Positions 22,952 through 36,439 of a stretch of 64,000 bases of DNA are shown here, in pieces. The stretch lies in NCBI GenBank assembly GCA_001898505.1, contig MKTZ01000004.1:310001-374000 (forward strand), read 5' to 3'. Every line of letters starts with the position of its first letter. Position 1 is the first letter of the stretch. Made by a program: the position numbers and the translations under genes. The stretch is from Sphingobacteriales bacterium 50-39. GTDB taxonomy: Bacteria; Bacteroidota; Bacteroidia; Chitinophagales; Chitinophagaceae. The notes below the pieces were generated by a model. It worked only from the letters and a program-made list of their open reading frames with translations, did not search any database and was not told the DNA's origin.

Positions 22952-24121
22952 ATGAAGCAAGCACCTAACCTCCTCGATGTCAGCAACTCCATTACCCGCA
23001 AGATCAAACATGACTATGACCGGCTCCTGGAAATGCCAGCTTTGTCCATTACCCGATTGTTGTCCTCTCCCGGTGTGTCATTGGCCGGATTTTCCCGGGG
23101 ATTTACCCCGCATCCGCGACTGGCAGATCTCAAAGCCGACGCCAATGCCTTTATCGACGGGTATCATCAGTGGTTAGATCCCATCCGGCCATTTGTCAAT
23201 TGTGCCGGATATCTGTTCCCCGGCGCCTTGTACGACCGGCTGCTGTTGATGACCAACTCCCTCAGCATCGGGTTCTATCTGAACGATGTCATGGGCCGTG
23301 ACGTATTTCCCAATTTGTCGATCGATGACCAGCAGGCTGCTATGAGGTTGATCGATAACATGTCCCTGGTTACGGAAGATCTGGACCTGTCTTCGGATGC
23401 ACACCCTCTGGAAATCGCCAATACCCGGATACTCGAGGTGTTCAAAGAGCAGAGCCCGGATGAATGGTTCAGCCGCTGGCTAAAGCTGTTCTGCTATCAT
23501 CTGTCCATTACTCATCGGGATCGCAATGCCCGCGCGCTCGGTTATATTCCCGGCGTGCATGAGTACATGGATGTTCGCTGCCATTATGCTGCCGTTCACC
23601 ATCTCATCCTGTGGGTCGAGTATTGCACCGACAACTACGTAGACTGGCGTTTCCTTACCAGGACCAATCTTCTTCAAAAGATGGAACGGCTGCATTGGAC
23701 CACCGCCGCCTTTCCGGCCCTGGCCAACGACCTGTTCTCCTTTGAGCAGGAGGTGATCGACAACCAGTGCGATTCGAACCTGATCATGGTCATCCTGCTT
23801 AATCACCCCGAGTGGCCGCTCGGGCGGGCTATCGAGGCGGCGGCGGAGATCGTACAGAACATCCTTTTTGAACAGCAGGCCCTCACGCAGGAACTAAGGG
23901 TGGAGATCGACAACTATCCACCATCCTTATCGGCGGAAAAAGAGAAGCTTATCCGTCACCTGGACGATCTTATGTCGTTCACAAAAGCCAGCTGGTTATG
24001 GCAATTCGGCACCAAACGCTATAAGAGGCCGAAAACTATCTGGCTGGAGACCGCCCTTTCGAAGGTCCCGACCGGAGAGGACCGTGGCGAAGCAAGTCCG
24101 ACGAAGGCCAATGGACATTAG
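22952..24121 (+). CDS. Class I terpene synthase family protein
   Basis: This 389-residue protein has the class I terpene cyclase signature. The NSE triad is NDLFSFEQE at residues 259-267 (N259, S263, E267). The first metal motif is NDVMGRD at residues 111-117 instead of a canonical DDxxD, so it is a variant. The end reads WQFGTKRYKRP. It should cyclise a prenyl diphosphate such as farnesyl or geranylgeranyl diphosphate with magnesium in the cytoplasm; the product cannot be predicted. No prenyltransferase or P450 lies nearby. It is flanked by two-component genes on both sides, and its stop codon overlaps that of the convergent hybrid kinase. Confidence 0.85.
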   Translation: MKQAPNLLDVSNSITRKIKHDYDRLLEMPALSITRLLSSPGVSLAGFSRGFTPHPRLADLKADANAFIDGYHQWLDPIRPFVNCAGYLFPGALYDRLLLMTNSLSIGFYLNDVMGRDVFPNLSIDDQQAAMRLIDNMSLVTEDLDLSSDAHPLEIANTRILEVFKEQSPDEWFSRWLKLFCYHLSITHRDRNARALGYIPGVHEYMDVRCHYAAVHHLILWVEYCTDNYVDWRFLTRTNLLQKMERLHWTTAAFPALANDLFSFEQEVIDNQCDSNLIMVILLNHPEWPLGRAIEAAAEIVQNILFEQQALTQELRVEIDNYPPSLSAEKEKLIRHLDDLMSFTKASWLWQFGTKRYKRPKTIWLETALSKVPTGEDRGEASPTKANGH

Positions 24122-25935
24122 TTTTGGGGTAGCCGTTGGAGATAGAGAAGGATGGTCTTTCTTAAAGCCTGATGATCGATGGGCTTCTTGAGGAAAGAAT
24201 TGGCGCCTGCGGCCAGCATCCGATCCACCGTGTCCGAATACAGATCCCCCGTGGTGATGATGATCGGTATGTGCATCAGCTTAGGGGTTTGTTTCAGCCG
24301 TCGTATGGTCTCCACCCCGTCCAGAATGGGCATATGACAATCCAGGATGATAATGTCCGGACATTCGTCCGGGCATTTTTTTTGAGCGAGCTCTATCAGT
24401 TCCTGGCCATTTCTTGTCATCGTATGGGAACAGCCCATTTCTTTTAGCGACCGCGAGAGCAGATATGCCGTAAGCTTATCGTCTTCCGCCGCCAATACAT
24501 AAACTTTTTGCAGATCGCCGATCTCCGGGTCCGTTCCCGCCGGGTCGGGCAGGTCTCTCAGCTTACCTTCCCTGAGGGGCAAGGACACTGCGAACGTTGT
24601 CAGGGAAGTCTCTTCACTCTCGTAACGCACCGTACCGCCCATGGCTTCCACCTTTGATCGGACAATATATAGTCCAAGTCCCGAGCCCTGGATATGCCCC
24701 CTGCTATTTGTCACAAAGGGATCGAACACCGAATGAGCTCTGTCTGCCGGCAACCCTGCTCCATCGTTCGTTACCCGGATCTGCCAGTGAGGCGTATTAT
24801 CAGAACGGGCCGGAGGCTCGTTGTCCGAAGGACAGACATTAGACGTTTCCGGAAAACGGGCTATATTTCCCCGGAGGCCCGTTTTCTGGACACTATTGCC
24901 GATGGTCATTTTGATCGTCGTCCGCCGCTCACCGTATTTTATCGCATTGGAAAGCAGGTTTGTCACGATCTGCGTGATAGCCAGCGGGTCGCCGAAGATC
25001 ACTTCCGGCATATTGTCGTCTATTTCCAGATGGAGCTTCATTTCTTCCCGTCGGGCCATGATCACAAACACTTCCATGATCTTTTCAAAGAAAGGGCGGA
25101 CCTTAAATGCTTCGTTGACAATGGTGATGGATTTTCCGGCTTCGATCTCCGCCAGCTGTAAGACATTGTTTACGATGTTTCTTGCGTTGGAGCTCACCGT
25201 CCAGCCGATGTCTGCCAGCGGCTTGATTTTATTCAGGCTGGGGTCCCGCCGCACCTCTCCCCGTAAAAGTTGTGTTACGTGATGGATGTTGTCAAGTGGC
25301 GTCCTCAGCTCATGCGTTATCTGCGCCACAAATATCTTTATCAGGTGGTTGGCCCGTTTTAATTCCTCATTCGTGTCGTGGCTCTTTACATAAGGAGCGC
25401 TTATGAGGACCGTTATCAGCGTCATGATAACAATGACGGACATCTGGATGACAAACACTGTGTTGTAAGGAAGACTTATCGGGAGCTCAAAAGGGTTCCG
25501 GTAATACAGGACCTCGATGATGACCAGGTCAAGGAGGGCTGCTGCAATACCGAGCGTGCGCAGCTTCTTAGTTTTAAACAGTAAAAAGGTAATGGCAAAG
25601 AGCAGCACGATGACGATGTCGAGTCTAAGCAGCTTGCCCAGGACCGCGCTCAGGTAAATGATCATTACCGATTGCAGGAAATACAGGATGATGGCGGCCG
25701 TCGTATATTTACGCCACTTATTGAAAAGGAGGATGCTGGCATTGATGATAAATTCCAGGACAAAAGGTATGACCAGTAAAGGCCGCCAGTTGAAGCAGGC
25801 GCATATCGTGGCGCCGACGCCGATAATAGAGCACCCCGTCACCACGCAAAGCGTGTTCACGAGGATGATCCTGTTCCTGTCCGCCTGGTCCAAAACACCG
25901 GCTGTCCCTATCCGAAAGAGTCCAATTCGTTTCAT
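24118..25935 (-). CDS. Hybrid sensor histidine kinase with C-terminal receiver
   Basis: This 605-residue protein has about six membrane segments in residues 22-180. A HisKA domain follows with H208 (FVAQITHELRTPLDN), then a HATPase domain with N-box LLSNAIKYG, G1 TNDGAGLP and G2 GSGLGLYIV. A C-terminal receiver has acceptor D532 (IIILDCHMPILDG). Between the N-box and G1 there is an extra, low-complexity segment of about 33 residues (about 349-381). It is encoded by a copy of the structured repeat described at 24804. The gene is convergent with the terpene synthase and shares four bases with it. It probably starts a phosphorelay for this cluster. Confidence 0.93.
   Translation of the reverse strand: MKRIGLFRIGTAGVLDQADRNRIILVNTLCVVTGCSIIGVGATICACFNWRPLLVIPFVLEFIINASILLFNKWRKYTTAAIILYFLQSVMIIYLSAVLGKLLRLDIVIVLLFAITFLLFKTKKLRTLGIAAALLDLVIIEVLYYRNPFELPISLPYNTVFVIQMSVIVIMTLITVLISAPYVKSHDTNEELKRANHLIKIFVAQITHELRTPLDNIHHVTQLLRGEVRRDPSLNKIKPLADIGWTVSSNARNIVNNVLQLAEIEAGKSITIVNEAFKVRPFFEKIMEVFVIMARREEMKLHLEIDDNMPEVIFGDPLAITQIVTNLLSNAIKYGERRTTIKMTIGNSVQKTGLRGNIARFPETSNVCPSDNEPPARSDNTPHWQIRVTNDGAGLPADRAHSVFDPFVTNSRGHIQGSGLGLYIVRSKVEAMGGTVRYESEETSLTTFAVSLPLREGKLRDLPDPAGTDPEIGDLQKVYVLAAEDDKLTAYLLSRSLKEMGCSHTMTRNGQELIELAQKKCPDECPDIIILDCHMPILDGVETIRRLKQTPKLMHIPIIITTGDLYSDTVDRMLAAGANSFLKKPIDHQALRKTILLYLQRLPQN
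24804..24886 (+). repeat. Three-hairpin structured repeat, copy 1 (inside kinase gene)
   Basis: Hairpin 1 has an eight-base-pair stem 24804-24811 with 24815-24822 and loop GGA, including one G-T pair. Then comes GTCCGAAGGACAGACATTAG at 24823-24842, with a small GTCC/GGAC stem. After eight bases, hairpin 3 has stem 24852-24859 with 24879-24886 and a loop starting GCTATATTTCC. Copy 2 at 35252 aligns without gaps up to that loop, with the same loops and linker but different, still complementary stems. It lies antisense to the kinase gene and is translated in frame as a loop insertion. Confidence 0.8.
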
Positions 25936-25970
25936 AGATAATGTAAGGGTTAATGGTAATGACTAATTCT

Positions 25971-26690
25971 TCATTGGTCGTTCAGGAGGTGCAAATTGGT
26001 TGGCAGGGATACTTCCGCGATCGGACCGAAGTCCTGCCTTGTCTTGAAAACCAATTTTCCGCCAAAGATCTGTTCAACCAGGTATTCGGTCACGGTTTGG
26101 TCCAAACCATGGGTCCTGCCGGAAGGTTCTCCCGTCGGCTGCTCCGGAGTGTACCAATGTTTGGATATCACTGCCTCGGGTGCTTTTTCCCTATTGCTCA
26201 AAAAAAGCGTGATACTTTCCCTGGTATCCGACCCGATGGCCAGCAGCACCTGGCCTCCGGCGGGTGTCGATGTAATAGCGGACTTTAATAGGTTATTGAT
26301 AACAATGGCCAGCCGGAATTCATCCGATAGGATCGTTTCAGGGACTGCGTCGGCCCACCGGGTATCGATCCTTACGCCATATTCTCCCGCAAAGGAGAGG
26401 CATTCCGTGACCACTCTCGATATAAAGGGCTTGAATTGCACTGTATCCAGCCGGGTGTCCAACAGTCCCGCACGGCACTTCGTGTATTCCACGAGATTGC
26501 CCAGCCGGTATTTGAAATCCTGGCAGGCCTCGACCAAATGTTCGGCAATGACAGTGATATCCTCTTCCTTGTCCAGCGACATTTTTAACATCGCCGCCGC
26601 GTTTGAAATACTGAAAAATGACCCGGCAATTTCGTGTGTAGCTTTTCTGACGGATTCGGTAACGACCTTATGAGGATATTCAGGCGTCAT
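25971..26690 (-). CDS. Soluble histidine kinase-like protein with degenerate ATPase
   Basis: This 239-residue protein has no membrane segment or sensor domain. A HisKA-like region carries a candidate phospho-histidine in RKATHEIAGSFFSISNAAAM. An N-box-like INNLLKSAI and a late GRTHGLDQTVTEYLVEQIFGG resembling G2 are visible, but the G1 motif DxGxG is missing from the SNREKAPEAV stretch. It may therefore fail to hydrolyse ATP and act instead as a histidine phosphotransfer or scaffold protein. It is encoded 35 bases upstream of the hybrid kinase on the same strand, so the two are probably co-transcribed. Family membership is clear; loss of catalysis is inferred. Confidence 0.78.
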   Translation of the reverse strand: MTPEYPHKVVTESVRKATHEIAGSFFSISNAAAMLKMSLDKEEDITVIAEHLVEACQDFKYRLGNLVEYTKCRAGLLDTRLDTVQFKPFISRVVTECLSFAGEYGVRIDTRWADAVPETILSDEFRLAIVINNLLKSAITSTPAGGQVLLAIGSDTRESITLFLSNREKAPEAVISKHWYTPEQPTGEPSGRTHGLDQTVTEYLVEQIFGGKLVFKTRQDFGPIAEVSLPTNLHLLNDQ

Positions 26691-27013
26691 TTAAGTCTAA
26701 AGTAGTATTAAAATCAGTAATACGCAAAAAGTATCCTGTTGAGTCATTTTTGACCGCAGATGAGGTCTTCCCCTGTCGGGTAACTGCAGTAGTTTAAAAA
26801 AATGGGGCTTTTCCAAAAACTTCGACATATGTCGGGTCTTCTTGCAATCGGGCGGTCTAAATTTAGGTTCTAATAGGATAAGGTTTAATGGTTATGGTAT
26901 TTGATTAGTGCATCCCCGGCGTCAGCCGGGGATTTATTGTCTGGTTACGGCTTTGATTAGGACCTTTGGGCGCAGGTTTTTATACACCATACACCTCTGA
27001 TACATCCATTCCT
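26691..27013. promoter_or_regulatory. Divergent intergenic region with palindrome and tiny ORF
   Basis: These 323 bases between the degenerate kinase and the lone receiver contain no convincing gene. A 23-codon ORF at 26802-26873 on the plus strand has no recognisable product. It is followed by the perfect nine-base-pair palindrome at 26912-26933. Together they could be a leader peptide plus attenuator for the receiver gene, but nothing further supports this. Confidence 0.35.
26912..26933 (+). terminator. GC-rich hairpin in the leader of the receiver gene
   Basis: ATCCCCGGC (26912-26920) pairs perfectly with GCCGGGGAT (26925-26933) around a four-base loop, followed by TTATTGT. A terminator is not expected between two divergent genes. 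It may therefore end a short leader transcript or act as an attenuator for the gene starting at 27014. Confidence 0.45.
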
Positions 27014-27409
27014 ATGGGAGAAAAAATGCACATCATCGCTGTTGTTGACGACCATCCGTGGTTTAGAAAAATATTGGTGGAGATCATCAAGCAACATGTA
27101 CCTCAATGCACCGTCAGCCTGCAGGCGGGCAACGGTAAAGAACTGATAAACATATTATCCTCCGGTGAATACCACTTGCCTGAATTGATCCTGCTGGACC
27201 TGCAAATGCCTTTCATGAATGGCTACGAGACAATGGAGTATTTAATGGCAAATTATCCCCAGATCAAAGTAATGGTCCTCACGCTGGACCAGAAAGAGCC
27301 TCCCGCCTGGATCGTGCAAAAAAACAATGTAGTGGGCTGGCTTTATAAAAATATTGAAGCTCCAACGCTCATCGATACTATCCGCGGCTTTTTTTTAATG
27401 AGAACCTGA
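27014..27409 (+). CDS. Single-domain response regulator (receiver only)
   Basis: From the ATG at 27014 the protein is 131 residues; an ATG at 27026 with GGAG just upstream is equally possible. It is a bare receiver domain: IIAVVDDHPWFRKILVEIIK, phospho-acceptor in ELILLDLQMPFMNG, then VMVLTLDQKEP and the conserved lysine in VGWLYKNIEAP. No output domain follows. Such proteins shuttle phosphate or bind partners. Beside a hybrid kinase and a degenerate kinase it fits a multi-step relay. Its last 15 bases overlap the end of the convergent hydrolase gene. Confidence 0.88.
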   Translation: MGEKMHIIAVVDDHPWFRKILVEIIKQHVPQCTVSLQAGNGKELINILSSGEYHLPELILLDLQMPFMNGYETMEYLMANYPQIKVMVLTLDQKEPPAWIVQKNNVVGWLYKNIEAPTLIDTIRGFFLMRT

Positions 27410-29566
27410 AATAAGCTCTTCAAAGGGGATATCCATCACCGGGTAGGCCTTCCATCCGGCGAAGTCGAAATGCCACCATTCGCTGGGATAGATGACAAAG
27501 CCGTGCTGCAACATCACATCCTGCAATAATTTTCTATTCTTCCGCGCCAGCCCGGTGACATCGGACCAGGTAGCGGAAGCCTCTTTTGTAAAGGCGTCGT
27601 AAGGGGTGGGCATCTCCAGATCCTTGCCTGTCCGCAGATCGATGAGTGTCAGGTCCACCGCGCAGCCCCTGTTGTGACGGGAGCCTGTATAGGGAGAGGC
27701 TACGAAGTTGGAGTCGTGGTAGGCTTCGTAGAAATCCACTGTGACGCGATAGGGTCTGTAGCCGTCGTATATCTTCAGGCCGTAGCCCATGGGCTTTAGC
27801 TGTTGCTGTATATCCTTCAGGGCTTTGGCGGCTGGCAGACGAAGGAAGGCCGCTGCCGTATGATAGACCGGCCGGTGCATGATGTTGTTGGAAGTAGCAT
27901 AGCGGATGTCCAGGCGGATGCCTGGAATGAATTTGTCGAGAGACACTATTTCCTGGTTGGGGTCGGAGGCGACCTGGTTACGGTAGTCGGTCAGGGAGGC
28001 GGGTTTGAGGCCATATTTGGTGTATGGAGAACCGGGCAATGCCTGAGATATCGTTGCCGGCCTGTCCGCGGCCAGCCGGATGAAATAAGCCTGGATCAGG
28101 GCGGGATTTTCCGGGGACAGCGTGAATCGTACTTCGATGTCCTTTTTCTCTCCTATGATGCGGAAGGCGCCCCGGAGCTGGTTCTCGGGTTTTATCTCTT
28201 CCACGCGTATGATCCTGCCAGCGGCGGCAAATATCTCGCGGGCCTCTTTTCTCAGGGAGTCGATGAGGTAATCGTCAAAGAAGTTGACGCTGAAAATACC
28301 GCTGTTAGCGGCGTCCTTCCAGTCGGGCAGTAGGGCCATCAACTGTTGCTGTCTCTTTTTTAGTATGTCCGATGCAGGGAGCTGCCGGGGTTTTAGCCCC
28401 GCGAGGCTGATAAGGGTGTCGAGTATACGGTAATTGAGGGCGCCGGTGCCTTCGTAGGTGGCATTGCAGAAGCTGACAATGCCGATGCCATATTCCGGGA
28501 TGATGGCCCAATTGCTGCCAAAGCCCGGCAGGCCGCCGCTGTGGCCGATCCATTCCTTCCCCGTACAGTCCTTGTTCCAGCCGAGGCCGAAGTTATAAGC
28601 AGATATGCGGGGGCAGAGCACGCCGGAACTGTTGCGCGCCTGGGTATTGAAACCGCTGAACTTCCCCGGCAGCTGCATTTCTCTCACGGAGCTGCGACGA
28701 ATAGGGATACCTTTGTCAGAACCATCCCGGGGCGGCCAGGCAGACAGGTGGAAGAGCATATAGCGGCTGAAGTCTTCTATGGAGGTCAGCATACCACCCA
28801 TGGCGCCATAGGCTCCGCTGTGCAGCATCTCTTCTTCTTTCCAGTCATTGTTGAGCCAGCGATAGCCATGAGCCAGGTCCGTTGGTGTCACGTCCGTGTA
28901 TTCCCAATAAGTATGGATCATGCCCAGGGGCTGAAGGATGGTGCGGGTGATATATTTTTCAAAGGGCTCCCCGGATACTTTGGAGACGATGTGCCCTAAG
29001 AGGGCAAAGCCCAGGTTGCTGTATTCATAAGCCAGCCCGGGAGTATTGGACAGGGAGACGCCATTTTTTATAAAGTCGATGAGCTCCTGATCTGTGCGTT
29101 GCAGCTGTCTGTCACCCCAGGGGTTGTCTTCCGGAAAGCCTGCCGAGTGGCTTAGCAGCTGACGGATCGTGATAGGAGGGCTGTCGTCCGTCAAAGGTCG
29201 TATCTGCGTCATCTCGGGGATATATTTTGATACCGGATCGTCCAGGTCCAGCTTGCCCGCGTCGCGGAGGGAGAGGATAGCCATGGCCGTAAAGCTTTTT
29301 GTCATGGAGGCAATGCGGTATACGCTCTGTGCTGTGGCGGAGATATTCCGGGCGATGTTGGCATGGCCGAAGGCGCCTGTATGTATCAGCCTGCCGTCCG
29401 CTACGATGCCATATACCAGGCCAGGGACATGATGGGTGGCAGCATAGGTCTTGTAAATGCTGTCAACCGTGGACCATACGGACTCTAAGGGATTTTGGGC
29501 TTGAGATAGTTGAGCTTGCAGGACATGTGCAAGCAGGATTCCGAAGGCTATGATGGATCTTCTCAT
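27395..29566 (-). CDS. Fusion of serine beta-lactamase-like hydrolase and VanX-type D-Ala-D-Ala dipeptidase
   Basis: This is a 723-residue exported protein with signal peptide MRRSIIAFGILLAHVLQAQL. Residues 30-390 form a class C beta-lactamase/DD-peptidase fold with SMTK (S87-K90), YSN (Y182-N184) and HSG (H341). Residues 400-510 are a linker domain. Residues 540-715 are an M15D dipeptidase like VanX or DdpX, with zinc ligands in SRHNRGCAVD (H631, D638) and EWWHFDF (E696, H699). It probably cleaves murein-derived peptides in the periplasm and releases D-Ala. It follows the RpiR gene by 9 bases in one operon. The two activities are usually on separate proteins. Confidence 0.92.
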   Translation of the reverse strand: MRRSIIAFGILLAHVLQAQLSQAQNPLESVWSTVDSIYKTYAATHHVPGLVYGIVADGRLIHTGAFGHANIARNISATAQSVYRIASMTKSFTAMAILSLRDAGKLDLDDPVSKYIPEMTQIRPLTDDSPPITIRQLLSHSAGFPEDNPWGDRQLQRTDQELIDFIKNGVSLSNTPGLAYEYSNLGFALLGHIVSKVSGEPFEKYITRTILQPLGMIHTYWEYTDVTPTDLAHGYRWLNNDWKEEEMLHSGAYGAMGGMLTSIEDFSRYMLFHLSAWPPRDGSDKGIPIRRSSVREMQLPGKFSGFNTQARNSSGVLCPRISAYNFGLGWNKDCTGKEWIGHSGGLPGFGSNWAIIPEYGIGIVSFCNATYEGTGALNYRILDTLISLAGLKPRQLPASDILKKRQQQLMALLPDWKDAANSGIFSVNFFDDYLIDSLRKEAREIFAAAGRIIRVEEIKPENQLRGAFRIIGEKKDIEVRFTLSPENPALIQAYFIRLAADRPATISQALPGSPYTKYGLKPASLTDYRNQVASDPNQEIVSLDKFIPGIRLDIRYATSNNIMHRPVYHTAAAFLRLPAAKALKDIQQQLKPMGYGLKIYDGYRPYRVTVDFYEAYHDSNFVASPYTGSRHNRGCAVDLTLIDLRTGKDLEMPTPYDAFTKEASATWSDVTGLARKNRKLLQDVMLQHGFVIYPSEWWHFDFAGWKAYPVMDIPFEELISGSH

Positions 29567-29575
29567 GTGGTAAAT

Positions 29576-30424
29576 TTAGTTATAATAGACATTCTCTTCT
29601 TCCACCAGCTTCTGATAGGCCCTGGACTGACGGGTGGAGGTAGGTTTCGTCATCTCCACGATACAATGTTTGAGCGCGTTGCAGATGCTGAAGGCTCCGA
29701 TGAGAGGGCTGAGAAAGTAATGGGGGGCAGGGTGTACGAACAGGTTGTATTTGCTGTAGGTGCATAAGGGTGAGTATTCGCTGTCCGTGAGCGCGATGGC
29801 CGTTGCCCCTCTATCTTTCCCTTTTTTCAGCGCTTTTATCGTCTGGTTCTGGCACTGGTCGAAGCCGATGGCGAGGACAACGTCGCCTTTTCCAAAATGC
29901 CCCATATAGTCGAAGAGCATTCCGTTGTATTCCGTGACGGCATGGACCTTCGGAAGATGGCTGCGGAGGATACTTTGCAGGTAGGTAGCTACAGCGCCGA
30001 TGTATCCTAATCCGATGATATAGGTCTGCCGGGACGTTATGATCGCCTGGCAGGTCTGTGTGATCTTTTCGAATGAAACTTTTTCGATGGTGCCGGTGAG
30101 CATCTCGAGGTCCCTGGATAATGCGTTACGGATGGCCTCATCCGTGGTCGTGCTGACTTCAAATTCACTAAGGACCTGGGTAAAGGAGCTTTTTTTCTCC
30201 TGGTTGCGGACCGTGTCCTTTAATCTTTTTTTCAGGTCGTGAAAGCCGGCGAGGCCAATGCTCTGGCAGGCTTTTATGATGGTCACCGGGTCGACCTTCA
30301 GTTTTGCGGCCAGGTCGGCTGTATTTAAGGATATGACCTCATCGGGATGATCTAAAATGTATTTGATTACCCGGTATTTTTTCTTGGGGAGTGTGTCGAG
30401 ATCGATGTGCTTGAAGAAATCCAT
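29576..30424 (-). CDS. RpiR/MurR-family regulator with SIS domain
   Basis: This 282-residue protein has an N-terminal HTH_6 domain (YRVIKYILDHPDEVISLNTADLAAKL, VDPVTIIKACQSIGLAGFHDLKKRL). Its C-terminal SIS sugar- or ligand-binding domain reads YIIGLGYIGAVATYLQSIL and DVVLAIGFDQCQNQTIKALK. RpiR regulators sense phosphosugars or, in some systems, amino-acid derivatives. It is divergent from the DUF1611/epimerase pair and in an operon with the dipeptidase fusion, so it very likely controls both through the shared 131-base intergenic region, which holds perfect palindromes. Confidence 0.92.
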   Translation of the reverse strand: MDFFKHIDLDTLPKKKYRVIKYILDHPDEVISLNTADLAAKLKVDPVTIIKACQSIGLAGFHDLKKRLKDTVRNQEKKSSFTQVLSEFEVSTTTDEAIRNALSRDLEMLTGTIEKVSFEKITQTCQAIITSRQTYIIGLGYIGAVATYLQSILRSHLPKVHAVTEYNGMLFDYMGHFGKGDVVLAIGFDQCQNQTIKALKKGKDRGATAIALTDSEYSPLCTYSKYNLFVHPAPHYFLSPLIGAFSICNALKHCIVEMTKPTSTRQSRAYQKLVEEENVYYN

Positions 30425-30445
30425 TTTTTTATTGATGATGCTGTT

Positions 30446-30486
30446 CCAAGGTAATCATCCTTTTGCAATAATCAATAAAAATATTG
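30446..30486 (-). promoter_or_regulatory. Candidate promoter of the RpiR operon with overlapping operator
   Basis: On the minus strand TTG (30475-30473) is separated by 19 bases from TACCTTGG (30453-30446), close to the -33/-7 consensus. The -33 element overlaps the inverted repeat CAATA/TATTG at 30473-30486, which matches the core of the palindrome at 30499. That is consistent with autorepression by RpiR. Confidence 0.5.
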
Positions 30487-30498
30487 CTTTTTTATTAT

Positions 30499-30522
30499 TG
30501 TCAATATTGACATGTACTTTTG
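30499..30522 (+). promoter_or_regulatory. Operator palindrome and -7 box of the DUF1611 operon
   Basis: TGTCAATATTGACA at 30499-30512 is a perfect 14-base palindrome. Three bases later TACTTTTG at 30515-30522 matches the Bacteroidota -7 consensus TAnnTTTG exactly, 34 bases before the chosen ATG. A repressor bound to the palindrome would block the promoter. The divergent RpiR gene is the obvious candidate. Confidence 0.6.
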
Positions 30523-30555
30523 CCCGCCCGGTCAACGGGCCGGAAAAATTTCGTT

Positions 30556-31614
30556 ATGAAAGACAATGCAATCATACTCACGGCCGGCGTCCTCACGGGC
30601 GCCAATGCCAAGACGGCTCATGGGTTGATAAGATCCAGCTCGAGATACACCATTATTGGCGTAATAGACAGCGCTTCGGCGGGCCAGGATGCGGGCCATC
30701 TGTTGGACAAGGTTCAACGGGATATTCCTGTATATGCGACTATCGGGGACTTTGTCGCACAGTCGGAGAGACGTGCGAAATATGCCATTGTTGGGGTCGC
30801 CTTTGCCGGTGGCAGGCTGCCGGAGCCGATAGTGGCGCAGATAAAGGAAGCCATTGCGGCAGGCATTTCCGTCGTATCGGGGGCGCATGACTTTTTATCG
30901 GATATGCTCGAGGTGCGGGAGTTGGCGGAGCGGAATGGGGTAACGCTCCTGGATATTCGCAAACCGAGACCAAAGGACAAACTAAAATTCTGGTCGGGAG
31001 AGATCATGCAGGTGACTGCGCCTGTTATTGCCGTCATGGGCACCGACTGCGCCCTGGGCAAGCGGACGACGGCCGTGATGATCACAGAGGCTATGAAAAG
31101 CAAGGGCATGAAGGGGGAGATGGTATTCACGGGGCAGACAGGCTGGTTGCAGGGACATCGTTACGGTTTTGTACTGGATTCGACGTACAACGATTTTATT
31201 TCAGGAGAGTTGGAGAATGCCGTCGTGACCTGCTGGCGGGAGACCAGTCCCGATGTCATCTTTGTCGAAGGCCAATCCGCATTGTGCAATCCAAGCGGAC
31301 CATGTGGCTCGGAGTTCCTGCTGTCCGCGCAGTGCAAGGGAGTGATCTTGCAGCATTCACCTGCCAGGGAGTTCTATAAGGGACAGGAGCATACGGGGAT
31401 AAAGATCTCCTTAGTGCGGGAACTGGAGCTGATCCGCCTGTACGGCAGCCGCGTGTTGGCCATCACATTGAATACGTCAAGGCTGACCATGAGTGAGGCG
31501 AGGATATTCCAGGAGAAGATAGCGCAAGAGACGGGACTGCCCGTGATACTGCCTTTGGAAGATGGCATGGACAGATTGTCGGATATTGTAAAAGCATATA
31601 TTACCAACCAATGA
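30556..31614 (+). CDS. DUF1611 protein (DgcN-like, candidate D-amino acid N-acetyltransferase)
   Basis: The start at 30556 begins MKDNAIILTAGVLTGANAKT, giving 352 residues; the frame extends 12 codons further upstream without support. It has a Rossmann-like N-terminal domain and a P-loop-like C-terminal domain with GTDCALGKRTTAV at 162-174. Other conserved blocks are GQTGWLQGHRYG and EGQSALCNPSG. From memory, DgcN, a DUF1611 member, acetylates D-glutamate and its partner DgcA epimerises the product in some proteobacteria and archaea. Here too it overlaps an enolase-superfamily epimerase gene by four bases (ATGA). The same pairing could instead serve murein dipeptide recycling. Confidence 0.82.
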   Translation: MKDNAIILTAGVLTGANAKTAHGLIRSSSRYTIIGVIDSASAGQDAGHLLDKVQRDIPVYATIGDFVAQSERRAKYAIVGVAFAGGRLPEPIVAQIKEAIAAGISVVSGAHDFLSDMLEVRELAERNGVTLLDIRKPRPKDKLKFWSGEIMQVTAPVIAVMGTDCALGKRTTAVMITEAMKSKGMKGEMVFTGQTGWLQGHRYGFVLDSTYNDFISGELENAVVTCWRETSPDVIFVEGQSALCNPSGPCGSEFLLSAQCKGVILQHSPAREFYKGQEHTGIKISLVRELELIRLYGSRVLAITLNTSRLTMSEARIFQEKIAQETGLPVILPLEDGMDRLSDIVKAYITNQ

Positions 31615-32678
31615 AGATACAACGCATCAATGTCAGTAAAGAGGATCTCCTGCTGACCAGGCCTTATACGATTGCCTTCAAGACGGTGGATGCCGTGGAG
31701 AATGGCATCATCGAGATCGTAGCGGATAATGGACTTTGCGGGTATGGTTCTTTCAACCCCAGCTACCAGGTAGTGGGGGAGCATTTGGAAGACGCCCTGG
31801 CCATTCTCAATGAGGATAACCTTTCCGTGCTGATAGGGAAGGAGCTGGATGATATAAATGCCTTGTGTGATCTCGTTCAACGAACCTTTAGCCGGAGCCC
31901 TACCGCGCGCACCGGGCTGGAGGTCGCGCTCTATGATCTCGTTGCGCAGGGGAAGGGGGTCCCATTGGTGCGATTGTTGGGACAAAAGATCCAATCCATG
32001 CCTACATCGATCACCATTGGCATAAAAGGAGTAGCGGAGACATTGGAAGAAGCCAGGGAGTATATAGGCCGCGGCTTCAGGATATTAAAAGTCAAGCTGG
32101 GCATCTCTCTCGAGGAGGACCTGGAAAGACTGGTGCGTCTGCGGGAGGTCTTTGGTTACAGCATCGGGATCATCATCGATGCCAACCAGGGGTATGATGC
32201 GGAGCAATTGGCGAGATTTGCGGCGCAGACTGCCGGATTGAATATAGGGCTGATCGAGCAGCCTTTGAAGGTGGGGCAGGAAAATGAGATGCGGAAACTG
32301 TCTCCGGAGATTAAAAAACTGGTGGCGGCCGATGAGTCGTGTGTTACACCGGAAAATGCATTGCAGCTGGCCACGGCGCCCGCTGCCTGTGGGTTCTTCA
32401 ATATCAAACTCATGAAATGCGGGGGTATCAGCCAGGCGCAGAAGATAGCGGACACCGCCTCCAGGCATTCCATCGACCTGATGTGGGGATGTAATGACGA
32501 GAGCATCATCAGCATCACAGCGGCCTTGCATACGGCGTTCTCTTTTTCGCATACGAAGTTCATCGACCTGGACGGGAGTTTGGATCTGGCGAGAGATGTG
32601 GTCGCCGGGGGCTTTATTTTAAAAGACGGGATCATGTCCATATCGGATAAGCCCGGACTGGGGCTGAAGAGACTGTAG
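31611..32678 (+). CDS. Enolase-superfamily epimerase (L-Ala-D/L-Glu epimerase-like or DgcA-like)
   Basis: This 355-residue protein has the muconate-lactonizing-enzyme fold. Catalytic lysines are in ILKVKLG (K162) and FNIKLMKCGG (K266). Metal ligands are D190 (DANQG), E216 (EQP) and D241 (DES). The FIDLDGS motif (D319, D321) near the C-terminus is the signature by which dipeptide epimerases bind the free amino group of L-Ala-D/L-Glu. That favours a murein dipeptide over an N-acetylated amino acid as substrate. The DUF1611 partner, whose stop codon overlaps this start, argues the other way. The product should be an epimerised glutamyl compound fit for catabolism. Confidence 0.9.
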   Translation: MKIQRINVSKEDLLLTRPYTIAFKTVDAVENGIIEIVADNGLCGYGSFNPSYQVVGEHLEDALAILNEDNLSVLIGKELDDINALCDLVQRTFSRSPTARTGLEVALYDLVAQGKGVPLVRLLGQKIQSMPTSITIGIKGVAETLEEAREYIGRGFRILKVKLGISLEEDLERLVRLREVFGYSIGIIIDANQGYDAEQLARFAAQTAGLNIGLIEQPLKVGQENEMRKLSPEIKKLVAADESCVTPENALQLATAPAACGFFNIKLMKCGGISQAQKIADTASRHSIDLMWGCNDESIISITAALHTAFSFSHTKFIDLDGSLDLARDVVAGGFILKDGIMSISDKPGLGLKRL

Positions 32679-32707
32679 ACCGGCCCTGTAAAAGGGGCAG
32701 AGGCACA

Positions 32708-34441
32708 TTATTGCTGGTCACCTGAATCACCTGTGTAGTATATATTTCCATCTGTATCTACCACGCATGCATTCGTGTTAACCAGTCCATTGGCTGCAAA
32801 TGTCCATTTAAGCGAAAGGTTCGCGGCATCGAAAACATATAATTTATTGTCTTCCCGGTTGGTGTACACCATGCCATTTGCTACTACAGGAGCAGGAGAA
32901 GTATTTTTTATTTCAAGGATATTGGGATAAGGGTAGCTGGCCTTTAAGACTCCCGTCCCGGCGTCTATGGCATAGGTCAGATTGTCGTCATTCCCGGCAT
33001 AAAGGATGCCGTGGGAAACAACAGATGCAGAAAAATGCCCTCTTGTCGAATGTGTATTATCTCCAATTCCATATTCCCCTCCCCGGGCCTGGTATTTCCA
33101 TTTCAACGTGCCGTCTGCCTTGTTAATGGCATACATATATGTATTGGCCCCGATATAAACGGCATCTCCTGCCACAGTGGCGCTGCCATTGGAATTTGCT
33201 TCATTGTTGCTAAAAGACCATTTGACGCTGCCTGTTGCGGCATCCAGAGCTGTCAAGACGGTGACTTCCGTACCTATATAAACCACGCCATCCGCCATTG
33301 CGGGGCTGGATGCGCTCAATCCGGCTCTGTACGACCATTTTAACGCTCCACTTACGGCATCAAAGACGAATAAGCCGGAGCTCCAGCTGTTGATATAAAT
33401 GACTCCATCGACAAAAGTGGGGTTAAAAAGAGTGCTGGGATAGTTGTTATACGCTATATGCTGTTCCCAGATCAAACCCCCATTGACCGCGTCAAGTGCC
33501 AGCAGGGAATGAGTTTGAACGACGCCGGATGTGGCATATCCGACGTAGAGCTTATTATCGTGCAGGGTGGGAATTGTAAAGGTGCCAAGTGTTTTTTGAA
33601 AGGTCCATTTGACAGCGCCCGTCAGCATATCAAATGCATATAGGGTCCCATTGGCATTGCCGGCATAAACCACACTATTGGACACCGTTATTCCGGTGAC
33701 CTGGCTTCCGAGATTGTATTTCCAGTATAAATTTCCCGTTACACCGTTGATCGCATATAGATATCCATCACTGCTGCCGAAAAAGACCCCCAGATTTTTG
33801 CCCGCTATAACAGTATATTTTTTTGTTGTACCGTCTTCCGCCTGTACGATGTAGGCCACCGGAGAGGTAAAGTCTAGCGGCTGACCCGCCGGAGGGGTAA
33901 TGGATTTTCCTTCATATGTGATCGTTGCCTTCAAATGCGTGATGTCTTGTGCAGAAGGTATAAAAACAACAATGGTATCTTCTCCAATGATGCCGGGAAC
34001 ATCTTTGCTCAAACCTGTATTGTCGGCAGCCTTGAACAAAAATGAGGTAATTCGCTTTGCGGTAGATAAATAGGTAACGATGGCTGTGTAGGTTGCCGTG
34101 GTGCCATCCTCCGCTGTTACCATGTATTTCACCGGCTTGCTGAAATCCTGTTGGACCTGATTGCCCGGAGCGATGCTTTTCCCCTTGAAGGTGATAGAAG
34201 GAACCAATCGGGTCAGCACCGTATTTATAGGAACGAGCAGGTATATTGAATCATTGTGGATATCACCGCTGATGTCCTGCAGCAGGACGCCAGGATTGTC
34301 ACTGGCTTTGAGATAAAAAGATTCGATTGTTTTTACGGCGCTTTTTACCGGCGGATCGCTCTTTTTGCAGGCGAATAGCAGGCTGCAGGTCAGCGCCATA
34401 ATCAATATAATACGGCAGGGTAAGGTGTGGAGGTCCAACAT
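32708..34441 (-). CDS. PQQ-repeat beta-propeller lipoprotein with DUF5018-like N-terminal domains
   Basis: The ATG at 34441 gives 577 residues with lipobox LLFACKKSD. Two DUF5018-like immunoglobulin-type repeats follow (SIAPGNQVQQDFSKPVKYMV and SITPPAGQPLDFTSPVAYIV). Then comes a beta-propeller of PQQ-like repeats, each with an A-x-D-x-x-T/S-G-x-x-x-W core (YAINGVTGNLYWKYNLG, YAFDMLTGAVKWTFQK, TALDAATGSVKWSFS). It should be attached to a membrane facing the periplasm or surface. No enzyme partner is adjacent. It could bind a ligand or scaffold proteins, as BamB does. It converges on the epimerase gene. Confidence 0.85.
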   Translation of the reverse strand: MLDLHTLPCRIILIMALTCSLLFACKKSDPPVKSAVKTIESFYLKASDNPGVLLQDISGDIHNDSIYLLVPINTVLTRLVPSITFKGKSIAPGNQVQQDFSKPVKYMVTAEDGTTATYTAIVTYLSTAKRITSFLFKAADNTGLSKDVPGIIGEDTIVVFIPSAQDITHLKATITYEGKSITPPAGQPLDFTSPVAYIVQAEDGTTKKYTVIAGKNLGVFFGSSDGYLYAINGVTGNLYWKYNLGSQVTGITVSNSVVYAGNANGTLYAFDMLTGAVKWTFQKTLGTFTIPTLHDNKLYVGYATSGVVQTHSLLALDAVNGGLIWEQHIAYNNYPSTLFNPTFVDGVIYINSWSSGLFVFDAVSGALKWSYRAGLSASSPAMADGVVYIGTEVTVLTALDAATGSVKWSFSNNEANSNGSATVAGDAVYIGANTYMYAINKADGTLKWKYQARGGEYGIGDNTHSTRGHFSASVVSHGILYAGNDDNLTYAIDAGTGVLKASYPYPNILEIKNTSPAPVVANGMVYTNREDNKLYVFDAANLSLKWTFAANGLVNTNACVVDTDGNIYYTGDSGDQQ

Positions 34442-34500
34442 AAAAAACAGGGTTTGGGTTCGCAAAATTACGTTTTACAGGTTAAATATGGACAGAAATC

Positions 34501-34593
34501 CCCGGCAGCCGCCGGGCATGCTCCTGACACTGATCCGGAATATTTTGCGGCAGCAGGCGCCTGCTGCCAACCTGGCCATTTAATGTATATTTG
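34501..34593. promoter_or_regulatory. Divergent region with hairpin, 20-base palindrome and -7 box
   Basis: CCCGGC (34501-34506) pairs with GCCGGG (34511-34516). A perfect 20-base palindrome, GGCAGCAGGCGCCTGCTGCC, lies at 34549-34568. TATATTTG at 34586-34593 matches the -7 consensus exactly and precedes the DUF6624 ATG by 16 bases. The palindrome lies where a -33 box would be, so it could be an operator. Confidence 0.45.
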
Positions 34594-34609
34594 GGCATAT
34601 GACCCGCTT

Positions 34610-35239
34610 ATGAGAAAATTATTACTCCTTCTCTTTTTATGCCTTTCAGCCGTTGCATGGAGCCAGGACTCCGCCGTGGCAAAGAAAGATACGCCCTGGG
34701 CGTTGTATCATAGCATCGAGGCACGACTCGACACCGTATACGGGGATGATCAGTCCGGCCGCCAGATGATCGAAACCATACAAAAGAAGTATGGCATGCG
34801 TTCCAGGCAAATGGATTCGTTGTACAAGGCCATGGGGAAGAAGGATTCGATCAATCGGATCAAGGTGAAGGGGATCCTGGGCCAGTATGGATGGCTTGGC
34901 ATAAACGAAATAGGGGAAAAGGCCAACCTGGCCATCTTTCTCGTGATCCAGCATTCCGACAGTCTCACGCAGGTGACCTATCTGCCTGTGATGCGGCAGG
35001 CGGTGAAGGATAAAAAGGCCAGGGCAGCCGATCTTGCATTGTTGGAGGACAGGGTTCTCTGTATGCAGGGAAAGCCACAGTTGTATGGCAGCCAGGTGCG
35101 GGTGCTAAAGACCGGTAAGTACGCCCTATTTCCCATACAGGACGAACCCAATGTCGATCGGCGGAGGGCTGAGGTAGGTTTGGAGCCGTTGGAAGCCTAT
35201 GCCCGGTATTTTGGCATCGACTATCATTTGCCTAAGTGA
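34610..35239 (+). CDS. DUF6624-like exported protein
   Basis: The signal peptide MRKLLLLLFLCLSAVAWSQ sets the start at 34610 and gives 209 residues; a longer frame begins far upstream but has no signal. The C-terminal pattern LEDRVLCMQGKPQLYGSQV and VDRRRAEVGLEPLEAYARYFGI resembles DUF6624, a family of unknown function. An aspartate-rich N-terminal half (LDTVYGDDQSGRQM) is also typical. It stands alone, divergent from the propeller gene. A copy of the three-hairpin repeat begins 13 bases after its stop codon. Confidence 0.72.
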   Translation: MRKLLLLLFLCLSAVAWSQDSAVAKKDTPWALYHSIEARLDTVYGDDQSGRQMIETIQKKYGMRSRQMDSLYKAMGKKDSINRIKVKGILGQYGWLGINEIGEKANLAIFLVIQHSDSLTQVTYLPVMRQAVKDKKARAADLALLEDRVLCMQGKPQLYGSQVRVLKTGKYALFPIQDEPNVDRRRAEVGLEPLEAYARYFGIDYHLPK

Positions 35240-35251
35240 GCCTGGTCGAAT

Positions 35252-35333
35252 GAACCGCTGGAAGCGGTTCGTCCGAAGGACAGACATTAGCGATATGCGG
35301 GAATTGGGCTATCTTTCCGGTAAGACCAATTCC
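35252..35333 (+). repeat. Three-hairpin structured repeat, copy 2
   Basis: Hairpin 1: 35252-35259 pairs with 35263-35270 over loop GGA, eight perfect pairs. Linker: GTCCGAAGGACAGACATTAG at 35271-35290, identical to copy 1. Hairpin 3: 35300-35307 pairs with 35326-35333 over a loop beginning GCTATCTTTCC. Both stems differ in sequence from copy 1 yet stay complementary. The left part could act as a terminator of the DUF6624 gene. The right part forms the last codons of the minus-strand DUF3472 gene, whose stop codon lies in the conserved loop. Confidence 0.8.
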
Positions 35334-36439
35334 TGCACTTTATCGGGCGGGGCCTCGTTGGGCGAAGGATGTCGTTCCCACCAGGTGTCCAGAGGTGTAT
35401 AGTTCGAGAAGAACCCGCAATTCTGTAAGAAGAAGGCATTCCCTTTTACCCCTCCTGCATAATCCATTCTATAACCTTTACGCGCAGTATTGTCTCCTGT
35501 AAACCGCGCTTTTGTCAGCTGGATCCATTGTCCCTGGTCCGTACGTACCCATTGGTGGTCGAACAGCACGTAGCGGATCTTGTCGCCATTAGCGGGTTCA
35601 AAATTTTCCAGGAAGGAATGCAGACCCGTGAGCCAGGCATGGGTCTGCGGGCGCAGGAAGCTGGCGATGAGCCGCCATTTGCCTTCCTCAGGCGCAAAGA
35701 ACCAGGCCGTGAATTCAGTCTTATTATGCTCCCGGGGCCGGGCATGTATAAGGAAGCGATAGGTATTACCCGCCCGCCAGGGATAATTGAGATAGCTCTG
35801 TCCGCCTGACCCTTCGTTGCCGAATTCGCCGGCGTGTACGGATGGTCCTTTTGCCACGAGCTCTATCTTCTGGCTATCGGGGATCTTTTTCGGATCGTCG
35901 GTGCTGAACGGGCTCCATACGGAAAAGAGGATATGTCTTTCGGTGGGAGAGTTCACCTGCATCCCAAAATAGCCCTGTGAAAAACCGCCGGCCATGAAGT
36001 AAGAACCCTGGATATCATATCCTGAGGGTACGAAGACCTCGTTGTAAAACCATTCGGCGTTTGTGCCTTCGGGTAAGGGGTAGTTGAGATGCACTGAGGG
36101 GCCCCGTCTGCCCCAGTAAAAGAAATCTCCTTCGTTGTTGGGGACGAAGGTGGCATCCCGTGTAGCCGCGCCTGTCAGGGTAATGGTCTCTACTTCGCGG
36201 CCTGACAGGGTGAGACCCACATAACCCGTGTCCTTTATGTTATAGGTAGAGATATAAGAGGGTCCTGTAGTAACACGTATCGTGCCCGTGTGTCTCAATC
36301 GGAAAAAAACGGTATGCGTGTTGGCAGAGGTGCTCCAGGAGTTGCCTTCCATGGGGATGACGATGGAGTCAGTGGAGATCTGGGTGCGACCCGTCAGGCT
36401 TGTTGCAATGAGGAGCAGGATCGTGTATAGCGTCTTCAT
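35309..36439 (-). CDS. DUF3472 exported protein
   Basis: This 376-residue protein has signal peptide MKTLYTILLLIATSLTG. A DUF5077-like N-terminal region precedes the DUF3472 domain, with YFMAGGFSQGYFGMQVNS, ILFSVWSPF, GEFGNEGSGGQSYLNYPWRAGNTY and a final GYRMDYAGGVKGNAFFLQNCGFF. These proteins are thought to bind or process carbohydrates; the activity is not established. The last residues, VQELVLPER, and the stop codon come from hairpin 3 of the repeat at 35252, so the C-terminus may have been replaced. No operon partner is evident. Confidence 0.85.
   Translation of the reverse strand: MKTLYTILLLIATSLTGRTQISTDSIVIPMEGNSWSTSANTHTVFFRLRHTGTIRVTTGPSYISTYNIKDTGYVGLTLSGREVETITLTGAATRDATFVPNNEGDFFYWGRRGPSVHLNYPLPEGTNAEWFYNEVFVPSGYDIQGSYFMAGGFSQGYFGMQVNSPTERHILFSVWSPFSTDDPKKIPDSQKIELVAKGPSVHAGEFGNEGSGGQSYLNYPWRAGNTYRFLIHARPREHNKTEFTAWFFAPEEGKWRLIASFLRPQTHAWLTGLHSFLENFEPANGDKIRYVLFDHQWVRTDQGQWIQLTKARFTGDNTARKGYRMDYAGGVKGNAFFLQNCGFFSNYTPLDTWWERHPSPNEAPPDKVQELVLPER

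Follow-up and report, generated by a model that had tools for sequence, protein, structure and literature searches.

A new REP-like mobile family of three-hairpin elements in the genus of Puia, with a tyrosine-less pair of RAYT relatives as its probable, unproven partner

Two three-hairpin elements in the analysed window

The 64,000-nt stretch of the Sphingobacteriales bacterium 50-39 genome analysed here (the window, within which all positions are counted; the genome itself, of 7.9 Mb, is designated G000) harbors two copies of a structured element, each consisting of an 8-bp (H1), a 4-bp (H2) and a 12-bp (H3) hairpin arranged around conserved loops and a conserved linker. Between H2 and H3 lie AGACATTAG and then five variable bases; in both copies the H1 loop is 3 nt long, and the H3 loop, of about 18-20 nt, begins with GGCTAT. 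The two copies, their parts and the gene hosting the first of them are located as follows.

24802..24892, + strand: element copy 1, complete (H1-H2-linker-H3 with 2-nt flanks; covariance-model match of 93.8 bits)
24804-24890, + strand: copy 1 between its hairpin feet
24804..24822, + strand: H1 of copy 1, 8 bp with GGA loop (pairing, predicted DNA and RNA folds)
24823..24833, + strand: H2 of copy 1, GTCC-GAA-GGAC (linker match, DNA fold)
24834..24842, + strand: single-stranded conserved linker AGACATTAG of copy 1
24848..24890, + strand: H3 of copy 1, 12 bp, with a longer extension in this copy and the conserved loop start GGCTATnTTT
24118..25935, - strand: histidine-kinase/receiver gene of 605 codons (open reading frame, ORF)
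35250..35339, + strand: element copy 2, complete (covariance-model match of 101.1 bits)
35252-35337, + strand: copy 2 between its hairpin feet
35252..35270, + strand: H1 of copy 2, 8 bp with GGA loop (pairing, predicted DNA and RNA folds)
35271..35281, + strand: H2 of copy 2, GTCC-GAA-GGAC (linker match, DNA fold)
35282..35290, + strand: single-stranded conserved linker AGACATTAG of copy 2
35296..35337, + strand: H3 of copy 2, 12 bp, with the conserved loop start GGCTATnTTT

The three hairpins were recovered in the predicted single-stranded DNA folds of copies 1 and 2 (z of -3.41 and -6.10, respectively) and in their predicted RNA folds (z of -3.35 and -4.62, respectively). A 20-nt linker is identical in both; allowing ≤3 mismatches, it matches the window twice, whereas shuffled sequence gives 0.02 matches on average. 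A two-copy, three-hairpin element with a conserved linker, as proposed by a sequence-only reading of the window, is thus real, although two details of that proposal had to be amended: it described two eight-base-pair stems, which holds for H1 and not for the 12-bp H3, and its statement that the stems differ in nearly every pair overstates the difference between these two copies, in which only 5 of the 8 H1 pairs, none of the 4 H2 pairs and 4 of the 12 H3 pairs (9 of 24 in total) are changed. No Rfam family reached the gathering score in the window or matched up to an E-value of 1 around either copy, and a curated Rfam RNA family was rejected for lack of a covariance-model match. Together with the literature found, which had no work describing elements of this kind from Puia or the Chitinophagaceae, this agrees with the earlier statement that no named element has such a layout.

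Copy 1 is situated in antisense inside the histidine-kinase gene, whose 605-codon frame stays open. Calculated from the coordinates, it spans approximately residues 348-378 of the protein and falls in a gap of the kinase-domain PDB matches, which stop at about residue 339 and restart at 382-386. Copy 2 lies just past the stop of a + strand ORF ending at 35239 and overlaps the 3' end of a - strand ORF (35309-36439). Beside the histidine kinase, the + strand ORF at 22952-24121 resembles a class I terpene synthase, a similarity noted by eye from an NDLFSFEQE motif, no search having been made.

Covariation, distribution and insertion sites

A covariance model (R1) was built from 22 copies, selected because their linker was exact and their H3 visible. 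In these, 96.0% of the cells were paired, 16 of the 24 pairs carried changes on both sides, and none of 500 shuffles attained the observed covariation score, a signal that was destroyed by shifting the partner position; H2 was invariant, as was AGACATTAG, the copies having been picked for an exact core. A larger alignment comprised 185 distinct copies from several genomes (187 matches at E ≤ 1e-8) and, being fitted to the covariance model, is biased towards the model structure; leaving 80 gapped cells aside, 4155 of its 4360 filled cells (95%) were Watson-Crick pairs, 85 were G-T, 28 A-C and 92 other mismatches. More than one Watson-Crick type was found in 23 of the 24 pairs, the third H2 pair being of a single type, and H2 covaries too, its second pair occurring as T-A, G-C, A-T and C-G in 124, 25, 15 and 14 copies, respectively. 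Perfect stems were counted in 122 copies for H1, 171 for H2 and 88 for H3. The types of H1 and H3 are partly exchanged between copies, with 28 mixed copies among the 131 of the 185 covered by typing. The covariation of the stems, already proposed from the window alone, has very strong support across these many copies.

In G000, the linker at ≤3 mismatches occurs 108 times, against once for the reversed control, and the covariance model detects at least 144 copies at E ≤ 1e-3 among 150 places scored. At the same threshold, a scan across the genus (that of Puia) detected copies in 15 of 33 genomes and none in the remaining 18: at least 131 in G000 (132 places scored), 123 in G027, 104 in G017, 91 in G001 (Puia dinghuensis CGMCC 1.15448), 50 in G003, 44 in G028 (Flavitalea sp. 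BT771), 43 in G022, 41 in G002, 37 in G008, 32 in G016, 29 in G020, 10 in G015, 7 in G031, 6 in G007 and 2 in G030. The search of this genome and its relatives thus yielded many further copies with covarying stems, and neither of the opposite outcomes named in the sequence-only reading, two copies only or stems that do not covary, arose. Among 195 genomes of the family, scanned under stricter filters with at most 22 places scored per genome, the only matches besides those in G000 and G030 came from another genus, in its genomes G096 (at least 11) and G175 (at least 3). A structure-only scan, independent of sequence, returned 33 hits from windows centred on G000 elements (600 kb in all) and none from 200 kb of shuffled sequence, and the exact element core had no match in viral contigs.

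Two variants of the layout were observed. The G096 elements (L342-L349, L179, L181, L182) possess a GGCGCC-type H1, a GCCC/GGCC H2 and an H3 that is GC-rich and common to them, with CATCATTAG as the linker in most; no RAYT (transposase associated with repetitive extragenic palindromic, REP, sequences) was found in this genome. Eight of the 30 first-retrieved copies (L002, L012, L014, L015, L020, L023, L024 and L030) have a perfect H1-H2-linker part and no proper H3, and several of these break exactly at the H3 foot, as if H1-H2 were a separate unit.

Comparison of orthologous sites through their flanks revealed that G000 elements are absent from all 7 sites tested in G028 and all 6 in G017, the site of copy 2 being empty in both relatives. 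In a wider test of 56 element-by-genome comparisons, 45 sites were empty, 8 possibly filled and 3 other. The sites of G000 elements were empty in 10 of 11 cases in G028 and 6 of 7 in G017, and, in the reverse direction, G000 was empty at 6 of 9 sites of G028 elements and 5 of 5 of G017 elements. Absence is therefore reciprocal between species, and loss in one lineage cannot account for the empty sites. An old immobile repeat, inherited vertically, would explain the one orthologous site common to G000 and G028, but is already contradicted by the 45 empty comparisons out of 56 and their reciprocity, and is extremely improbable. The 8 possibly filled rows comprise two for this true shared site (L282/L152), four in which different-looking elements occupy the same gap (L302/L071, two rows; L159/L082; L327/L060), one element not alignable with its partner (L070) and one ambiguous case (L170/L023).

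The insert measures about 90 nt, from a weak CAG to CATTT, in the 75 of 86 copies that showed a clear H3 and entered the boundary analysis. Target-site duplications were not visible in 7 aligned sites, where short ones could escape at 70-85% flank identity. One G000 copy (L041) lies, with the reading frame kept open, close to the start of a gene which, read by eye, encodes an ABC-transporter-type ATPase, and the G028 relative of this gene lacks the element. A unit of about 90 nt has thus been inserted lineage-specifically, with no visible target-site duplication, and the elements almost certainly constitute a mobile REP-like family.

At the shared site, L282 (G000:C4:43897-45587) and L152 (G028:C12, 1501-1591) have the same flanks and stems changed by compensation: the H2 pair is T-A in one and G-C in the other, and the G000 linker has decayed while the G000 stems remain nearly perfectly paired. 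Such a pattern would be expected if compensatory change arose not from structural selection but from template-switch correction of quasi-palindromes during replication. This is a single site, however, and template switching leaves the conserved unpaired linker and loops and the three-part layout unexplained, while perfection throughout the element is expected too if only intact copies move; we regard this explanation as quite unlikely.

Orientation of the copies relative to genes

Gene context was taken not from annotation but from a caller based on codon usage, for which 17 long ORFs in the window served as training set. By these calls, 154 of the 185 copies lie outside genes and 31 inside, the high-copy, dispersed and mainly extragenic distribution of hairpins that characterizes canonical REPs. 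In gaps between co-directional genes, 65 copies are in sense and 23 in antisense orientation (p = 8.5e-6), the sense copies having a median distance of 18 nt to both genes; inside genes the numbers are 22 and 9, respectively (p = 0.03), although many of the sense copies are found at the extreme 5' end of the ORF and may be start-site artefacts. Convergent and divergent gaps contain 15 and 26 copies, respectively, and a further 25 of the 185 have an uncalled neighbour.

Lagging-strand orientation, as in IS200/IS605, was rejected, agreement with gene-normalised GC skew being only 43 of 74 (p = 0.2) in a test on 80 windows, none longer than 20 kb. Agreement with local gene direction was 41 of 56 (p = 7e-4); where gene direction and skew conflict, the gene was followed 13 times and the skew 7 times, and at sites without co-directional genes orientation agreed with skew in 12 of 23. 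The direction of local genes is thus a better guide to orientation than replication skew. A replication component may nevertheless be present, because the raw skew agreement in G000 alone (39 of 60, p = 0.027) points towards one and regional clustering of orientation exceeds chance: neighbouring elements share orientation in 57 of 96 pairs in G000 (p = 0.037) and, in sets comprising the best-scoring or most copies, in 10 of 12 in G017 (p = 0.02) and 7 of 8 in G001 (p = 0.03), with G028 not beyond chance (12 of 19, p = 0.22).

The bias suggests either transcription-coupled insertion or selection at the RNA level. The elements could accordingly be structured cis-acting RNAs, such as attenuators, stabilisers or operon processing signals, spread by mobility and retained where they are active in a transcript; the sense excess in gaps and genes, the following of gene direction rather than skew, the short distances to both flanking genes and the surplus of G-T over A-C cells are all in line with this. 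Insertion sites, however, are mostly unshared between species, which argues against a conserved site-specific regulatory role. No Rfam family corresponds to the element, copies also populate convergent and divergent gaps, and wobble pairs are rare (85 of 4360 cells), G-T being the mildest mismatch in DNA as well. A regulatory RNA is, on balance, unlikely to be what the family is.

The RayB-RayA gene pair and the position of the family among known systems

A homologue of RayA (55-100% identity), with its diverged paralogue RayB upstream in tandem, is encoded by each of the 15 genomes of the genus that bear elements, whereas both are missing from the 18 element-free genomes, in which the best full-length homologues are ≤35% identical (15/15 versus 0/18, Fisher 9.6e-10). 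The check for a REP-type transposase suggested in the sequence-only reading thus found a RAYT-derived pair, but one devoid of the catalytic tyrosine (Tyr). The Ray locus is single and, in the genomes listed, sits between a UvrD-type helicase gene and ArsC-like and sigma-factor genes. The HUH motif is present as HLH in 15 of 15 RayA and missing from 15 of 15 RayB; the RayA motif reads [HSE]IHE[ND]P, and that of two RAYTs from the same genus, used as controls, YIHNNP. RayA matches PF01797 (27.2 bits, cut-off 23), RayB does not, and both remain under the cut-off of 80 for NCBIfam REP_Tyr_transpos (NF047646), with 65.4 and 53.1 bits, respectively.

The RayA model (predicted local distance difference test, pLDDT, 73.8; predicted template modelling score, pTM, 0.75) adopts a Y1 transposase fold, with the IS608, 4er8 and ISDra2 transposases as top structural matches (Z 10-11; Z 10.5 over 129 residues at 3.0 Å for the E. 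coli REP transposase 4er8), while the RayB model (pLDDT 47.3) was too poor for use. Judging from ratios of nonsynonymous to synonymous substitution (dN/dS) of 0.04-0.11 for RayA and 0.06-0.15 for RayB (8 comparisons each, with dS mostly near or above 1), both proteins are under purifying selection. RayA relatives in other genera were readable in 27 cases, with Tyr at the catalytic position in 19, His in 5 and Phe in 3; Tyr-to-Phe is described as the catalytic mutant used in E. coli and other RAYTs (PMC8266576). Around 28 RayA-like genes of other genera, the structure-only scan covered 97 kb without a hit, an amount of sequence too small to rule out cognate families there.

Several other proteins and structures of this kind were noted. 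In the 160 nt before RayB, palindromes surround GGGAATTTTTCCC in G017, with weaker similar ones in G028 and G000 (L120, L121, L122), and these could be structures that flank subclass 2.6 genes. Two genomes of genus g71 (L183, L184) encode a RayB-RayA tandem (~51% and ~54% identity) in which the RayA catalytic Tyr is intact; the R1 element was not found in them in the 195-genome family scan. Another Y1 protein of G000 (L031, G000:C25:34261-37593, match 1501-1833), of 160 aa and encoded between DAHP-synthase-like and aroB-like genes of the shikimate pathway, was rejected as mobiliser: its motif, FIEKQ, lacks Tyr, it has kin in element-free genomes, and proteins of its type were not seen in the element-bearing G001, G007, G030 and G031. 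The full motif is FIEKQEEHH in G000 and YIDKQEEHH in G028 (L104), another loss of Tyr in the same protein superfamily.

Among known systems, the element resembles the REP/REPIN and RAYT systems of Proteobacteria in being a short, high-copy, covarying hairpin unit, mostly in gene gaps and tied to a Y1-type protein; RAYTs are described as single-copy and vertically inherited (PMC8049555). It differs in that its hairpins number three and are unequal, where REPs have a single hairpin or an inverted pair, and RayA differs from a RAYT in lacking the catalytic Tyr, in its HUH-less partner RayB and in rarely lying beside the element. The canonical foot GT[AG]G is likewise absent from the 177 of 185 copies (84-96 nt) used for end-motif tests: near the H1 foot GTAG was found twice and GTGG never, and the reverse complement near the 3' end 4 times as GTAG and 3 times as GTGG, with none at the H3 foot. 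On this ground a canonical REP was rejected. CGTC-tagged REPs and Rickettsia palindromic elements, described as palindromic, without a dedicated transposase and in part intragenic (PMC3733652), differ from this 90-nt, three-hairpin element, and the CGTC-REP assignment was discarded in the same 177 copies, with the tag at one 5' end and no 3' end. Miniature inverted-repeat transposable elements are also small, non-autonomous and multi-copy, but the ends here are not inverted repeats (28.8% versus 26.3% for random pairs in the 177 copies) and no target duplication was seen in the 7 aligned sites, so this class was rejected too.

A further comparison is with TnpA-Y1 subclass 2.6 (RAYT group 5), from the same phylum and with the motif context WQ / IH..P, whose "atypical secondary structures" (PMC6006769) are non-GTAG and present in copies in the genome. 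The motif given for this subclass is YIH[QN]NP, unlike that of RayA, and the genus of Puia does contain homologues, about 35% identical, in which this motif is complete. As described, the underlying tree took in only proteins with both HUH and Y, so Tyr-less members would be excluded (PMC6006769). The family is thus REP-like in layout and behaviour, yet fails the defining tests of canonical REP/RAYT systems. The suggestion of a REP-like mobilised palindrome holds for mobility at empty sites, copy number, hairpin layout, location in gene gaps and within-genus co-occurrence with a RAYT relative, and the REP label is not canonical, given the absent GT[AG]G foot, the missing catalytic Tyr, an element flanking the gene in 1 of 15 genomes and a second genus without detectable RAYT. 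The three-hairpin family is new, REP-like and mobile, and a Tyr-less, two-protein RAYT relative is its likely, though unproven, partner.

We consider it probable that the family is a non-autonomous mobile unit of about 90 nt, with the layout CAG-H1-H2-AGACATTAG-N5-H3-CATTT, independently inserted at many sites across the genus, and that RayA-RayB, descended from a RAYT, serves as its recognition machinery and would bind the element hairpins. The perfection of the stems would follow if this machinery read the folded single strand instead of the stem sequence, the unpaired GAA, ACATTAG and GGCTAnnTTT presumably providing sequence-specific contacts. Because RayA lacks the catalytic Tyr and RayB lacks both HUH and Tyr, cutting and joining would require RayA to act through another nucleophile, or a second enzyme.

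Several observations weigh against this role of the pair. At the catalytic position, 12 of the 15 RayA proteins carry His, two Ser and one Glu, and none of the 15 RayB has either motif. An element lies near the Ray locus in only 1 of 15 genomes (L130, 561 nt downstream; some contigs end nearby), in contrast to the repeats that flank canonical RAYTs within about 1 kb; 15 named loci of 5-10 kb contain 7 good matches, spread over 5 of them. Searches of the element-bearing G096 and G175 with PF01797 (E ≤ 0.1) and with the RayA profile (E ≤ 10) found nothing, and G096 holds near-identical, recently amplified copies of its own element type. Moreover, the co-occurrence within the genus may represent a single evolutionary event on the tree, in which case the Fisher value overstates the evidence.

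The same observations would be accounted for if the element were moved by another enzyme and RayB-RayA only marked the same clade, which we hold to be a serious possibility, though short of an even one. Another reason would then be needed for the retention of two defective RAYT relatives at one locus, under purifying selection and with perfect co-occurrence, and G096 and G175 may have lost the genes, the latter genome being 91% complete. Given the possible single event, the rare adjacency and the RAYT-free G096 and G175, we rate RayA-RayB as cognate binding partner at slightly better than even, and as the catalyst itself on the unlikely side; the identity of the mobiliser is unproven. Rather doubtful, too, is the wider proposal that the family spreads although the linked HUH-only RayA and motif-less RayB lack Tyr, either by HUH chemistry free of a Tyr-DNA link or through a domesticated hairpin reader combined with another route of transcription-sense bias.

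Copying of REP-like elements is attributed to HUH enzymes that depend on Tyr. In the present genus, insertions specific to single lineages are found although the matching proteins, which are under purifying selection, lack this Tyr in 15 of 15 genomes, and in a second genus the element is present with no RAYT-like protein detected. The family thus offers a testable case of Tyr-free HUH transposition, of a domesticated two-protein hairpin reader, or of another mobiliser, while its stems provide a natural data set of structure-preserving change and some of its inserts are in frame within genes.

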